Part shown: positions 1,839-32,482 of the stretch, piece by piece
Position numbering within the stretch: the first letter of the stretch is position 1
Layout of the letters: each line of letters starts with the position of its first letter
Source of the DNA: Leptothermofonsia sichuanensis E412
Lineage (GTDB): Bacteria; Cyanobacteriota; Cyanobacteriia; Leptolyngbyales; Leptolyngbyaceae
Reading direction: 5' to 3'
DNA length: 64,000 nt
NCBI RefSeq assembly: GCF_019891175.1
Contig: NZ_CP072600.1
Span: forward strand, 2,790,001-2,854,000
The notes under the pieces: generated by a model
The model's database searches: none
The model's input: the letters and a program-made list of their open reading frames with translations, nothing else
Told to the model about the DNA's origin: nothing
Position numbers and translations under genes: made by a program

Positions 1839-2792
1839 ATGAACCGCCGAGAAGACTTTACAGACACCGCACTGGGGCTGGTTTCTGCCCAGAGCTTCCC
1901 TGCCATTGTGGGAATCGCAGACCACATGTTGAAGTCATCGGGGGTGACCCTGGTGGGCTATGAAAAGATTGGCAGTGGTCATTGTACGGCGATCGTGCGG
2001 GGAGGAGTGGCGGATGTGCGGCTGGCAGTCCAGGAAGGCGCAGAGCGGGCACAGCAGTTTGGGCAGCAGCTTTCGACCCTGGTGGTGCCCCGTCCAATGC
2101 CCAATCTGGAAGCCGTCCTGCCAATTGGCAACCGACTGGCACAGCTTGCCACGGGACGGGGACACAGCAAATTGAGTAACCAGGCGGTTGGATTGCTGGA
2201 AACACGCGGCTTTCCGGCAATGGTAGGAGCTGCCGATGCTATGTTGAAAGCGGCGGATGTGGCGCTGGCAGCCTACGAAACGATTGGGGCTGGACTTTGT
2301 ACGGCGATCATCCGGGGTTCGGTGGCAAATGTTGCGGTGGCACTGGATGTGGGAATGGTTGAAGCCGAGCGGATTGGTGAATTGCATGCGGTCATGCTGG
2401 TGCCCCGCCCGCTGGAAGATCTGGATCAAACCTTGCCCCTGGCAAGTTGCTGGATTGAGGAATTGCAGCCACTTAAGATTCCGATCTCGGTGAAGGAAAC
2501 GGAGAAACAACTGATTGCCTTACCGGAATTGAAGCAACAGCAAAAAACACTGGCAATGGCGGAACAACCTGTGATGCCAGAAGTCGAACCCCTGGCTATA
2601 GAACCCCTGGCAATGGAACCTGTGGCAGAGCCGCCAGAACTCAAGCAACCGACCAGTTCCAACCCGCCCCAGACAATACCTGAACATTCTTCCCTGGAGC
2701 TTCCAGCAACGGAGGAATTCGGCAATCTCGATGCTCAACCTGCGCCAGCCGAGGAAGAGGTCCCTAAACTGAAACGAAAACGAAAAAGTTAA
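1839..2792 (+). CDS. ccmO: Carboxysome shell protein CcmO (tandem BMC domains)
   Basis: The 317-residue product has two bacterial-microcompartment domains, about residues 10-95 and 112-200. Both carry A-L-G-L/A-V-G-L-L-E-type starts, the C-T-A-I-I/V-R-G core and V-P-R-P ends. A Pro/Glu-rich tail of about 115 residues follows and ends in a basic K-L-K-R-K-R-K-S. CcmO is a shell component of beta-carboxysomes. Its tandem BMC domains pack as pseudohexameric trimers. It is the last ccm gene here; a convergent GNAT gene ends 10 bases away, so the ccm transcription unit ends here. Confidence 0.93.
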   Translation: MNRREDFTDTALGLVSAQSFPAIVGIADHMLKSSGVTLVGYEKIGSGHCTAIVRGGVADVRLAVQEGAERAQQFGQQLSTLVVPRPMPNLEAVLPIGNRLAQLATGRGHSKLSNQAVGLLETRGFPAMVGAADAMLKAADVALAAYETIGAGLCTAIIRGSVANVAVALDVGMVEAERIGELHAVMLVPRPLEDLDQTLPLASCWIEELQPLKIPISVKETEKQLIALPELKQQQKTLAMAEQPVMPEVEPLAIEPLAMEPVAEPPELKQPTSSNPPQTIPEHSSLELPATEEFGNLDAQPAPAEEEVPKLKRKRKS

Positions 2793-2802
2793 CCTGACTC
2801 AC

Positions 2803-3768
2803 TCACACCGATCTGGCAAACACGATATTGGTCAATATTCGTTTGAACCCAACAGATTCATAGAGATGGTTGGCTCCAGAAGGGTTTTCGGTATCAACCC
2901 CCAGTCTGGCAATTTCCATTCCCGCTGCCTGGAGTCGGTGCAGACCTGTCAGCAACATTGCCCGCCCCAAACCGATGCGGCGAAATCCCCGACGGCTGCC
3001 TAACAGGTGAACTCCTCCAATCTGTTTCCCGACATGGGCATTGTAGATGGGATCAATTTCGCTGTAGCAGAATGCCGCAAAGGTGCCGTCGGGGGCGATC
3101 GCCACCAGGTCCAGTTCCGGCTGATAATTCGGACCGTGTCTGATCCCGTGGAAGTACTCTTCCAGGGTCATCTCATGGTGGTTCCAGTGATCAATAAAGG
3201 ACTGATTAAACATATCCACCCAGGCATGAATATCCTGTTCATCATTCATTGAATAGAGGGTAAAGCCCTCTGGCAGTCTGGGTGCTGGAATGGAATCCTG
3301 GAGCGATCGCTCCATTCGGAAGAAGTAGCGAATGGGTTGAAAGCCCTCCCGTTCCAGAAAAGCAATCCGGTGAGTCAGGGTTTCCCGCACAGCCGTATGC
3401 AGCCTGGTTGAAACACCGCGCTCTTGACCGATTCTCCGCATTACCGTTTCTGCCCAGCCAATCATTTCCTGTTCTCCTCCGCGATCGCGGACCTCTGGAT
3501 GCAGATTGAACCAGAGATTTCCTGCCGGAATTTCACTGGATTCTGGAATCCACAGCATGGCAAACCCAATCAATTGACCACTTGCGTCCTCCCACAGACG
3601 CAAGTCTCGTGCCGGTTGAAAGGACGGAGCATTGAAATCAGCTCGAAGTTCATCAACAGAAGTGAACGAATCGGGAATTTGATCGCCGATCGCGCACCGA
3701 TTGGCGAGATCGGCGATCGCACATAAATCCTGTTCTCCCTGGTAGGAGCGCCAAGTTAGGGTATTCAT
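2803..3768 (-). CDS. GNAT-family acetyltransferase with two GNAT modules
   Basis: This 321-residue protein has an N-terminal GNAT-like half (about 1-150) and a better conserved C-terminal half (about 160-321). The C-terminal half carries the acetyl-CoA-binding loop R-R-I-G-L-G-R-A (about residue 265) and the typical ending N-H-L-Y-E-S-V-G-F-K. Substrate is unknown; double-GNAT proteins in actinobacteria and cyanobacteria include mycothiol-synthase-like enzymes, but that function is not implied. The ATG at 3768 lies in a 20-bp tandem duplication. That duplication places a 7-codon mini-ORF immediately upstream, and its TGA overlaps this ATG. No separate Shine-Dalgarno is visible. The gene converges with ccmO. 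Confidence 0.85.
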   Translation of the reverse strand: MNTLTWRSYQGEQDLCAIADLANRCAIGDQIPDSFTSVDELRADFNAPSFQPARDLRLWEDASGQLIGFAMLWIPESSEIPAGNLWFNLHPEVRDRGGEQEMIGWAETVMRRIGQERGVSTRLHTAVRETLTHRIAFLEREGFQPIRYFFRMERSLQDSIPAPRLPEGFTLYSMNDEQDIHAWVDMFNQSFIDHWNHHEMTLEEYFHGIRHGPNYQPELDLVAIAPDGTFAAFCYSEIDPIYNAHVGKQIGGVHLLGSRRGFRRIGLGRAMLLTGLHRLQAAGMEIARLGVDTENPSGANHLYESVGFKRILTNIVFARSV

Positions 3769-28985: not shown

Positions 28986-30407
28986 TCAACTCTCGATCAA
29001 TTGCCCCAATGCCTCAGCCACTTCTCCAGCGTTTCTGTAGCGATCATCTGGGTGAGGGCTGGTTAACTTGCGAATAATCGTCACCATGCCTGGAGCAAGG
29101 TTGGGGATGTACTCTGGATAGAGACGAAAACCCTGCTCCCGATGGGCATAGAATTCGCTGGGGTCTTTGCCCGTCAGAAGGTAGACCAGCGTGGTGCCCA
29201 GTGCATAAAGATCTGAGGCAGGGATAGGATGCCCTTGTTTTTGCTCCGGGGCAAGGTATCCCGAAGCCGCCAGTTGCGATCCAATTGCCAGTTCATTGAG
29301 AGAGGCAAAACCAACGACTGCAATTGTGTAGGGATTGAAGGCAGAGGGACGCTGAATTAGACTTTCCGGCTGGATATTCTGGTGGATGAAGGGAGGGGAC
29401 TGATGATGAAGATAATCCAGGACATCACAGACTTGCAGAAGCGTGGCGATCGCTTCGTCCTTAGAAAGCGGTCCCTGTTTTGCAACTCGCTGGCTCAGAT
29501 CCTGTCCATGAACCCACTCTGTAATCAGATAAGGGTGCCCCTCCAGTGAGAAGTAGTCAATAAATCGAGGAATTCCTGGATGACTGAGCTGAAGTAACGG
29601 CTTTGCCTGTCGTTGAAATATCTCCAGCGCTCTGGGTTGGTTAACCCAGGCAGAACTGAGGGTTTTTAACAAAAGACTTTGACCGTTCCGCCAGACAACC
29701 TGGGTTACCCCAAAACCATCGTCTTTCAGGGTCTTAACAACCTGATATTCCACCAGGGTTTTCAGTACGCGCAGGGGTTGACCACTGTTCTGGCAGAAGA
29801 GAAACTCTTCTGAGGGATCGTCAGATAATCTGCCGGTGGGTTCTTCGGTTTCTGCCAGTCTCAGTTCAGGGGCGGGAGAGCCTTCTTCATCGACGACCGT
29901 AGCGGGTAACCTGGCAGGGGTTGGTGCTTCACTGCTCTCTGATGTCAGTTGGTTGGTGGTCGATGACAGTGTCCCGTCTCTGGCAGGGGCAGAGTGCATT
30001 GATTTTCCGCCATTCATTGATTTTCCGCCATTGTCTTCAGTCCGGCTCTTAATTCGTTGAGCCACCGTATTTTCACCAGCTAAATTTTGGGAGGCTGTTG
30101 AAGCGGATGGACCAATATGGATTTGAATGTTCGGACCGGAACGTGCCAGACGAATGATAACGCCATCCTGAATCGGAACCTGAGTAATGCGTTTACCATC
30201 CAGATAGGTCCCATTTGCACCCAGATTCACAATCTCCCATTGGGAGCCAACCTGTCGCAATTCCACATGATGACGGGAGACAACCGCGCTGTATAGGATG
30301 ACATGGTTGTCTGTTGACCGTCCAATGCGAATGACAGGCTCCTGTTCAAAACTCCAATTTTGAACAGGGATTGATTGAATTGGGTGGAGGAGCGTTAGCG
30401 TAATCAC
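28986..30407 (-). CDS. FHA domain fused to a Ser/Thr kinase-like (pseudokinase) domain
   Basis: The 473-residue protein has an N-terminal FHA domain (about 25-95; I-R-I-G-R, S-R-H-H-V-E-L, N-L-G-A-N-G-T-Y-L-D), a low-complexity linker (100-205) and a kinase-fold domain (about 221-473). The ATP-binding Lys is kept (K248 in L-L-L-K-T-L), as are A-P-E (386-388) and S-D-L-Y-A-L-G. The catalytic H-R-D is H-Q-N (342-344) and the D-F-G is V-G-F (365-367), so both key Asp residues are missing. It is most likely a scaffold or allosteric pseudokinase. The linker has a tandem N-G-G-K-S-M, from an 18-bp duplication near 29999-30034. A zinc-ribbon/FHA gene lies upstream on the same strand. Confidence 0.88.
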   Translation of the reverse strand: MITLTLLHPIQSIPVQNWSFEQEPVIRIGRSTDNHVILYSAVVSRHHVELRQVGSQWEIVNLGANGTYLDGKRITQVPIQDGVIIRLARSGPNIQIHIGPSASTASQNLAGENTVAQRIKSRTEDNGGKSMNGGKSMHSAPARDGTLSSTTNQLTSESSEAPTPARLPATVVDEEGSPAPELRLAETEEPTGRLSDDPSEEFLFCQNSGQPLRVLKTLVEYQVVKTLKDDGFGVTQVVWRNGQSLLLKTLSSAWVNQPRALEIFQRQAKPLLQLSHPGIPRFIDYFSLEGHPYLITEWVHGQDLSQRVAKQGPLSKDEAIATLLQVCDVLDYLHHQSPPFIHQNIQPESLIQRPSAFNPYTIAVVGFASLNELAIGSQLAASGYLAPEQKQGHPIPASDLYALGTTLVYLLTGKDPSEFYAHREQGFRLYPEYIPNLAPGMVTIIRKLTSPHPDDRYRNAGEVAEALGQLIES

Positions 30408-30629: not shown

Positions 30630-31370
30630 CTAGGAAAGTTGAAACAGAAATGTCACTTTGTCTCCCTTACCCAGAGCGATGCGATCGCCTGATCGCAGTC
30701 TGTGGCGGTTTCCCATTGGCAAAGGAGAATTGTTGATGTAAGTTCCATTGGAGCTGCCCACATCTTCAATATAGAAAGCATCTCCTTCAATGCGGATATC
30801 CGCATGAATCCGCGAGACAATTTCAGAGTCAGGGAAGCCTGAAACGTCAATATCTGGAGGAATCCGATCATTCGGTTTGCCCAAATGAATGACGGATAAA
30901 TTTTGAGGTAACTCAATCGAAGTACTCGTTTGCACATGGAGAAGCCGCACCACCTGCTGCTGCAACCGGGTGCTGGTTCCGCCCGCTGCCGGGGAAGCTT
31001 GAACAGACTTTGCGGCCTCGACTGGCTCACTGGTGAGCGGAATCGGTGGCGGCTGACTGGGTAAGACGGGATTCTCTAAGGAAGGTTCATTCACCAGTGG
31101 TTCGGGGGCAACCAGTGGATCCGGCGGAATTAGGTCGGGCAGGTCAGACATAGGGGAAGACATTCCTGAAGATGAACTGGCTCCACTGTTTGCCATCGAA
31201 ATACCTGCTGCCCGCAGATTAAATCCACACTGTCCACAGAAGCTTGCATCAACCTGTACCGTCGTACCACAGTTAGGACAGTTCATCGTAGCAGGCAGGG
31301 GCGTATAACAGGCCTCACACTGAATCGCTCCATCGGGATTTTGATGATTGCAATTGGGGCAAACAATCAT
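30630..31370 (-). CDS. Zinc-ribbon and FHA domain protein
   Basis: ATG 31370 (AAGGAAA upstream) gives 246 residues. Four C-x2-C knuckles (C4/C7, C18/C21, C31/C34, C45/C48) form two zinc ribbons. A Pro/Ser-rich linker follows, then a C-terminal FHA domain (about 160-245; S-R-I-H-A-D-I, D-V-G-S-S-N-G-T-Y-I-N). FHA domains bind phosphothreonine; the partner kinase is unknown. Longer upstream readings run into the neighbouring glycosyltransferase and are not protein-like. The next minus-strand gene downstream also has an FHA domain. Confidence 0.85.
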   Translation of the reverse strand: MIVCPNCNHQNPDGAIQCEACYTPLPATMNCPNCGTTVQVDASFCGQCGFNLRAAGISMANSGASSSSGMSSPMSDLPDLIPPDPLVAPEPLVNEPSLENPVLPSQPPPIPLTSEPVEAAKSVQASPAAGGTSTRLQQQVVRLLHVQTSTSIELPQNLSVIHLGKPNDRIPPDIDVSGFPDSEIVSRIHADIRIEGDAFYIEDVGSSNGTYINNSPLPMGNRHRLRSGDRIALGKGDKVTFLFQLS

Positions 31371-31525: not shown

Positions 31526-32482
31526 TCACACTTCGTGGGTTTGCCGTAACTCGGCATAGGCAGCATAGACTCCCTGGACGTTGTACCAGTTGAGAAAAAT
31601 TCGGGCGGCTTCCAGGGCAAGTTGAGGTTTGCCCTGATTGATCAACCACTGCAGGAAGGGGGCCATTGTGCGTTCGTTGAGCAGACCACCCAGGGAAAGG
31701 ATGCCCCACAATAGCCGATGCAGCCAGGTCATCTGGATCATCATGCGAACCTCCCAGGTGGGGTGTTTCTGGTAGAATAAAACGCCCATTCTGCCGCGCT
31801 GATATTCTTTCTCGATTAAGTTGGGGATTTGTTTCAGGGTAAAGGGTGGGTGCCAGTGGTAGCCAACGGCTTCCGGGCACTTGACCAGCTTTAAACCCAG
31901 TTGCTTCAGACGTACTCCCAGTTCCAGGTCTTCCCAGCCATAGAGTTGAAAGCGGGTATCAAAGAGTCCAGCTTTTTCCAGCCAGATGCGGGCGATCGCT
32001 ACATTCCCGGTGGCAAAAAACGCCTGGGAAAAGTCTGTGACTTTGAATGGTTCCGAAGTTGGGTCGTCAAAATTGCAGGTGTTGATCACCCGTCCGTAGG
32101 TGAAGAGGCGATCGCTGCCCAGATCCTTTTTTCCTTTAAGCAACCCACTGGCATGGGATTGCAAAAATGTCTCCGTCACCACCAGGTCACTGTCAATAAA
32201 GATAATCGTGTCCCCTGCGGCCTTTTCAACTCCCAGGTTGCGAGCGGCTGCCGGTCCCTGATGTTCCTGCTGCAACAGTTTTACGTGGGGAAACTGAGCA
32301 ACGGAGGCATGGAGCCAGTCTACAGTCCCATCCGTTGAACCATCATCCACCACTACCACTTCGTATCGCTCAACATCGATTGGGTCAAACTGCTGCTGCT
32401 CCAATGCTCTCAGGCATTTTTCCAAAATTGGTTTGCGATTGTAAGTTGGAATCACTACGCTAAAAAACACGGCGTTTCCCAT
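31526..32482 (-). CDS. Family 2 glycosyltransferase
   Basis: The 318-residue GT-A enzyme starts F-S-V-V-I-P-T-Y-N-R and has V-V-V-D-D-G-S-T-D-G-T, A-A-A-R-N-L-G and the metal/nucleotide-binding D-S-D (about 97-99). The acceptor-side motif W-E-D-L-E-L-G-V-R is also present. There is no transmembrane segment beyond a possible membrane-contacting C-terminus. Donor and acceptor cannot be told from sequence. The tRNA-Arg gene lies 76 bases upstream on the same strand. Confidence 0.9.
   Translation of the reverse strand: MGNAVFFSVVIPTYNRKPILEKCLRALEQQQFDPIDVERYEVVVVDDGSTDGTVDWLHASVAQFPHVKLLQQEHQGPAAARNLGVEKAAGDTIIFIDSDLVVTETFLQSHASGLLKGKKDLGSDRLFTYGRVINTCNFDDPTSEPFKVTDFSQAFFATGNVAIARIWLEKAGLFDTRFQLYGWEDLELGVRLKQLGLKLVKCPEAVGYHWHPPFTLKQIPNLIEKEYQRGRMGVLFYQKHPTWEVRMMIQMTWLHRLLWGILSLGGLLNERTMAPFLQWLINQGKPQLALEAARIFLNWYNVQGVYAAYAELRQTHEV

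Follow-up and report, generated by a model that had tools for sequence, protein, structure and literature searches.

The window analysed here (the whole stretch of 64,000 nucleotides from Leptothermofonsia sichuanensis E412) encodes, on the minus strand at 28986..30407, a protein of 473 aa in which an FHA region is joined by a linker to a protein kinase fold that has lost both catalytic aspartates. We lean, with no great margin of confidence, towards the view that this window protein is a scaffold that reads phosphothreonine and in which the kinase fold has been re-used for binding. The gene has a GTG start, and its coordinates and strand agree with an earlier reading made from the letters alone (the sequence-only reading). 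FHA (58 bits, residues 26-87, cut-off 20.7) and Pkinase (65 bits, residues 242-418, cut-off 31.7) are the sole Pfam families above cut-off. From Pfam and homologue counts, the FHA region covers residues 1-97 (30117..30407, minus strand); it is followed by a disordered linker of residues 102-199 (29811..30104, minus strand) with pLDDT below 50, which contains GENTVAQ from residue 111, and by the pseudokinase region of residues 220-473 (28989..29750, minus strand) as delimited by Pfam and AlphaFold2. The AlphaFold2 model was built on a 25-row alignment of the window protein and 24 of the 40 loci from the alignment scan described below. Its mean pLDDT is 78.1 and the kinase fold is confidently predicted, most of the kinase part scoring over 90; a strand at 362-364 ends just ahead of G366. 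The top solved structure in Foldseek is Rad53 1-466 (5xzv, E 4.3e-19), with PknB, PknA and PknI ranking after it within the top ten; by sequence, StkP, PknA and PknB lead among 623 matched PDB sequences. The hydropathy maximum over 19 residues, a mean of 1.36, lies within the kinase fold.

All catalytic positions described here are on the minus strand. In the homologue alignment the HRD motif is H342-Q343-N344, with Asn344 (AAT, 29376..29378) at the position of the aspartate, as the sequence-only reading had it. The same reading took DFG to be V-G-F; it was right that the aspartate is missing, but its columns were shifted by one, the D-F-G columns being G366-F367-A368 with Gly366 (GGT, 29310..29312) in place of the aspartate. 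The window protein is thus without two of the three key residues of which a bacterial pseudokinase lacks at least one (VAIK Lys, HRD Asp and DFG Asp), and only Lys248 on beta3 (29664..29666) is kept. Its retention had been noted earlier, together with that of APE and of D-x-Y/W-x-x-G, and A386-P387-E388 (29244..29252) and the alphaF stretch D399-L-Y-A-L-G404 (29196..29213) are indeed present. Degradation goes further than was then described: the catalytic-loop Asn position is Ser349 (29361..29363), the catalytic-loop Lys is replaced by Gln346, and the glycine loop is degraded. Also broken is the zinc knuckle that 53 of 71 homologues show, by pattern, ahead of the kinase; C205 is kept in the remnant (29784..29795, minus strand), the fourth Cys position is S208, and a pattern search of the window protein did not find the upstream C-x-H. 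With both catalytic Asp gone, the domain probably no longer transfers phosphate.

Relatives were sought in 386 genomes of the phylum, in 42 genomes of the same family and in a named genome collection, in which a single-protein query returned no relative and an alignment query returned 40 loci. In total 83 reading frames had matches to the FHA half as well as the kinase half, and removal of 11 duplicate sequences left 72 distinct ones, of which the broken L015 was excluded from residue counts (71 aligned homologues). A kinase tree of 65 rows was inferred by a quick and a careful method after removal of the HRD, DFG and Lys columns, with L015 and 14 active-type rows kept out. The window protein falls in clade A (20 rows, support 100/98). 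Clade C (14 rows, support 100/97) holds Thermosynechococcus, Acaryochloris and their kin, and group D, which comprises FHA-zinc-kinases mostly from family f7, has 12 tree rows (100/99) and 24 alignment rows; the other 13 fused rows are called group B as a grouping, with no clade status implied. The DFG Asp is present in 0/20 members of A (all Gly), 13/13 of B, 2/14 of C and 24/24 of D, and the HRD Asp in 15/20, 12/13, 0/14 and 24/24, respectively. The beta3 Lys is found in 6/20 of A, where the position is otherwise Arg (12), Ile (1) or Thr (1), in 13/13 of B, in 13/14 of C and in 24/24 of D; Lys248 is therefore no family constraint. The APE Glu is kept in 20/20 of A, 12/13 of B, 13/14 of C and 24/24 of D, and the alphaF Asp and the alphaH-alphaI Arg are likewise retained throughout clade A.

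The possibility that an active kinase has been disfigured by an assembly error or by a very recent inactivating mutation has hardly anything to recommend it. The HRD change is a single base, AAT against GAT in the same-genus relative L041, which keeps HQD, as such an event would leave it, but the loss of the DFG Asp is common to all 20 clade A sequences, each of them distinct and from a genome of its own, which rules out an assembly error as its source. The sequence-only reading had proposed aligning these columns over orthologues and had named retention of both motifs there as the sign of such an event. The alignment gives a divided answer: most of clade A, L041 included, keeps the HRD Asp and L010, 53% identical to the window protein, retains both motifs, whereas no clade A member keeps the DFG Asp.

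Selection was gauged from dN/dS by simple counting in 17 near pairs. These figures are rough, since synonymous sites approach saturation in many pairs and some pairs share a sequence, and we rely on the pattern rather than on the exact digits. With that caveat, the kinase part gives 0.044-0.109 in clade A (7 pairs; 0.077 for the window protein and L041), 0.049-0.071 in clade C (3 of 4 pairs, one being saturated), 0.068 in group B (1 usable pair of 2) and 0.041-0.113 in the active paralogues of group D (4 pairs). Pooled, the ten usable pairs from clades A and C span 0.044-0.109. Purifying selection acts on the pseudokinase part, which is constrained about like an active kinase; this upholds the earlier proposal of selection for the fold rather than for phosphotransfer. 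For the FHA, the ratios are 0.004-0.109 in A and 0.016-0.055 in C (11 pairs in all), 0.027 and 0.082 in B, and 0.121-0.215 in the four active pairs of D; the FHA is more constrained in A and C than in the active paralogues. Linkers are looser than the domains in most pairs, with saturation leaving no linker ratio for L050/L056, L012/L014 and L077/L078 and no kinase ratio for L012/L014. The L063/L067 pair was excluded from the kinase part as no kinase boundary was found.

A conserved fold could also mean an unconventional enzyme, one whose site binds nucleotide and works by metal-independent or altered chemistry. Nucleotide binding is possible because Lys248 is kept, and 15 of the 20 clade A members combine a retained HRD Asp with DFG changed to G[F/L]x, an arrangement resembling that of the metal-independent kinase CASK. 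New chemistry has been described for the bacterial pseudokinases SelO and SidJ (passages of PMC12599244). Nevertheless, the window protein is without the HRD Asp, the catalytic-loop Asn and Lys, the DFG Asp and the glycine loop, and the beta3 Lys is absent from 14/20 members of clade A, and we regard this explanation as quite improbable for the window protein.

By fewest changes, the whole kinase tree requires 5 changes at HRD, 4 at DFG and 6 at Lys. Three losses of the HRD Asp fall within clade A: in the window lineage, in L054 and in the group of L057, L058 and L066. Because the DFG Asp is gone from every clade A member while the HRD Asp is kept in most, the DFG loss is old and the HRD loss recent; within this clade, loss of the DFG Asp preceded that of the HRD Asp. 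In clade C, the HRD Asp is gone from all members while two still have DFG. The AU test does not reject a topology that joins clades A and C (p-AU 0.415), nor one that unites all fused kinases, as a single origin of the fusion would have it (p-AU 0.686). Separate HRD losses follow nonetheless, because the HRD Asp is kept in 15/20 of A versus 0/14 of C. The relatives thus show that catalytic residues were lost more than once, beside the same neighbouring gene.

The kinase half itself has also been lost in some relatives. In another scan, 80 genomes have a match, classed by their open frames: 8 carry the fused form (one of them broken), 65 carry FHA-only forms and 7 carry the active type only; L089, which is cut by a contig end, was not scored as FHA-only. 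On the gene-pair tree there are at least 6 changes in the presence of the kinase half, with the direction clear only where remnants show loss. One such case is L119 (G185, same family as the window), in which the frame stops just after the zinc-knuckle remnant and an endonuclease/exonuclease-family gene comes next in place of the kinase; in L124 (G289, also of the window's family) the FHA gene stops earlier than in L119. In L123/L015 (G089, a relative from clade C), the kinase half is cut short, and after the break comes a transposase-like frame that carries an integrase core domain (Pfam rve). The FHA is whole in L119, L124 and L123/L015 despite loss or interruption of the kinase half, which some lineages can evidently do without. 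It is conceivable, and to us unlikely rather than implausible, that the kinase half of the window protein is a vestigial passenger en route to loss and that the FHA works alone. The wide spread of FHA-only orthologues, the truncations within the window's own family and the broken L123 all fit that account. Against it stand the low kinase-part ratios in clades A and C and the structural motifs kept in 20/20 of clade A, features that one would not expect to survive over that divergence in a domain of 250 residues left to decay freely.

The gene lies downstream of a conserved companion. At 30630..31370 on the minus strand, 222 bp upstream, Pfam identifies a protein of 246 aa with a double zinc ribbon, a middle region and a C-terminal FHA, which from its layout of zinc ribbon and FHA we take to be FraH-like. 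At 39 of the 40 loci from the alignment scan (L104 is the exception) the zinc-ribbon FHA gene precedes the second gene in the same orientation, and this holds for fused and FHA-only second genes alike; the pairing, which the sequence-only reading had thought uncommon, is in fact common. In the clade C members L077, L078 and L080 the gap is a few bases, which suggests a single transcript. The pair lies within 500 bp in 8/8 sampled fused genomes (one broken); of the 65 FHA-only genomes, 27 have the two genes within 500 bp of each other, another 4 have them within 3 kb, 32 have the partner elsewhere and 2 give no match. At four g154 genus loci (L063-L065 and L067) the zinc-ribbon FHA gene was not found within 1.5 kb. 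RibBA and ArgC, as we presume the neighbours to be from their Pfam families, adjoin at 2/40 loci (L076 and L087). The sequence-only reading had also pointed to a nearby glycosyltransferase (31526-32482, family 2 by Pfam); this gene was found at none of the 40 relatives' loci (flanks up to 6 kb, shorter at contig ends), so its proximity carries no weight and the link was dropped.

The FHA appears fit to bind its ligand. The window protein has the signature GR, SR-x-H and NGT, and the phosphothreonine-binding residues R30, S44, R45, H47, N65, G66 and T67 are invariant in 71/71 homologues, which suggests that the ligand is a phosphothreonine. A possible source of such a site is the linker itself. 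The motif [GAS][DE]xT[LVIM]xQ occurs in linkers of 13/20 members of A, 4/13 of B and 0/14 of C, where shuffled linkers would give 0.095, 0.04 and 0.02, although the motif was composed after viewing the sequences and serves as a lead only. The recurrent threonine (that of GENTVAQ in the window protein) is a candidate phospho-site in the same sense. Separately, [KR][DE]T[LFI][IVL] occurs in 12 of 32 FHA-only tails (e.g. L092, L130 and L137) against 0.04 expected, again a lead only as the motif was chosen after viewing the sequences; the count covers 32 of 35 tails, with L089, L099, L136, L139, L140 and L141 outside it and L103-L106 kept. This tail motif resembles the phosphothreonine switch of GarA/OdhI.

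The genome itself has 34 kinase-domain matches, and 33 loci were examined. The window gene, L158 and L161 are without both Asp and L164 is without the HRD Asp only, while L163, L165, L166 and L167 are fragments or ambiguous. The motifs are HGN/NYG in L158 (G000:C1:82250-83200), HGN/GFD in L161 (G000:C1:2118600-2119500), which also lacks the beta3 Lys, and HLN/DFA in L164 (G000:C1:196100-197050). Pfam recognises FHA and Pkinase in the paralogue L108 (446 aa), which keeps HRD and DFG and has a whole zinc knuckle; its FHA-zinc-knuckle-kinase gene (L108:1112-2452) lies beside a PP2C gene (2554-3492), and the two are a candidate writer and eraser for FHA proteins. Because an intact FHA-kinase paralogue stands beside a PP2C in the same genome, it is plausible that the window FHA reads phosphothreonine made by another kinase, as the sequence-only reading had suggested.

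Eukaryotic pseudokinases switch active kin on or off, and the window protein might likewise pair with its active FHA-kinase paralogue and control it allosterically. The presence of that paralogue, and of another that keeps HRD and DFG in the same-genus relative (L111), would suit such a role, as would the 40% identity between the kinase parts of the window protein and L108 and the retained structural motifs of the kinase. However, a long distance separates the two genes in the genome, and among the matches seen all 22 family f7 loci are of the active type, so the active kinase may occur in that family without a fused pseudokinase. We hold this to be rather unlikely, and we rank the rivals as vestigial domain, allosteric partner and altered chemistry, in that order.

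On the scaffold reading that we favour, the FHA would dock on a threonine to which a different cellular Ser/Thr kinase has added phosphate, and the former kinase domain, which would transfer no phosphate, would be carried on the long flexible linker as a folded surface for binding. The working partner of the window protein would most likely be the zinc-ribbon FHA protein of the adjacent upstream gene. A broader and distinctly tentative version of this proposal is that, on at least two occasions and by opposite routes, an FHA-tethered kinase became a scaffold that reads phosphothreonine, with the DFG Asp lost first in the Leptolyngbyaceae-type clade and the HRD Asp lost first in the Thermosynechococcus/Acaryochloris clade, and that the pairing with the FraH-like zinc-ribbon FHA protein was retained through all stages. 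Under this version, the HRD-keeping G[F/L]x members may be metal-independent intermediates beyond which the window copy has moved, and the GExT[LVI]xQ threonine would be a phospho-switch for the protein's own FHA or that of its partner.

Few bacterial pseudokinases have a known role (passages of PMC12599244). In the family described here, a single gene at a conserved locus occurs in active-looking, half-inactivated, fully inactivated and kinase-less forms, so that both the order of loss and the purpose of the kept fold can be tested. FraH is needed for honeycomb thylakoids in heterocysts (passages of PMC11500504), and if the neighbour is FraH, the window protein would become a candidate partner, one that reads phosphorylation, of a protein linked to the organisation of thylakoids. 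The literature searched, mostly outside subscription journals, contained no recognised description of an inactivated cyanobacterial FHA-kinase family, which is weak evidence of novelty. In the portions available, FHA appears once in the main text of PMC12599244, for FhaA binding MviN, and PMC4057619, PMC6584798 and PMC4632739 contain only mentions of FraH or other FHA proteins.

With respect to known systems, Rad53/Chk2 has the FHA before the kinase, as in the window protein, but is eukaryotic and active. The upstream neighbour at 30630-31370 presumably resembles FraH of Anabaena in its zinc ribbon and FHA layout. Closer to the window protein are the cyanobacterial proteins that share an FHA with GR, SxxH and NG and a Hanks-type kinase, among them cbSTKII with FHA (PMC2176072) and FHA and kinase proteins of species including Thermosynechococcus elongatus and Nostoc (PMC1262709); FHA is listed among the domains tethered to cyanobacterial kinases in the part available of PMC2877116. 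In contrast to these FHA-kinase proteins, the window protein is without intact catalytic motifs. Some of the proteins in PMC2176072 and PMC1262709 may be members of its family, but according to their passages the two surveys excluded kinase-like sequences that lack the catalytic base or portions of the catalytic domain, and these passages describe neither an inactivated FHA-kinase subfamily nor the neighbouring zinc-ribbon FHA gene.

Three bacterial pseudokinase systems, as presented in passages of PMC12599244, allow a direct comparison. The CP1 pseudokinases of cyanobacteria and proteobacteria have no transmembrane region and show varied motif degradation, but all are linked to a COG3899 ATPase domain; this domain is missing in the window protein, and membership of CP1 was rejected. 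EssB/YukC of type VIIb secretion is a scaffolding pseudokinase with all three motifs degraded, yet it is transmembrane and no FHA is described in its chain, whereas the window protein has no such transmembrane segment. In MviN/FhaA of mycobacteria, a pseudokinase is paired with an FHA through phosphorylation, a pairing of domains also found in the window protein. The motifs of ActPs3/MviN (VALT, LSIDHPSR and Y--; Table 1 of PMC12599244) are not matched by those of the window protein (LLLK, HQNIQPES and GFA), and the FHA of the mycobacterial system sits in a separate protein that binds the pseudokinase protein's phosphorylated tail, whereas in the window protein FHA and pseudokinase are parts of one chain.
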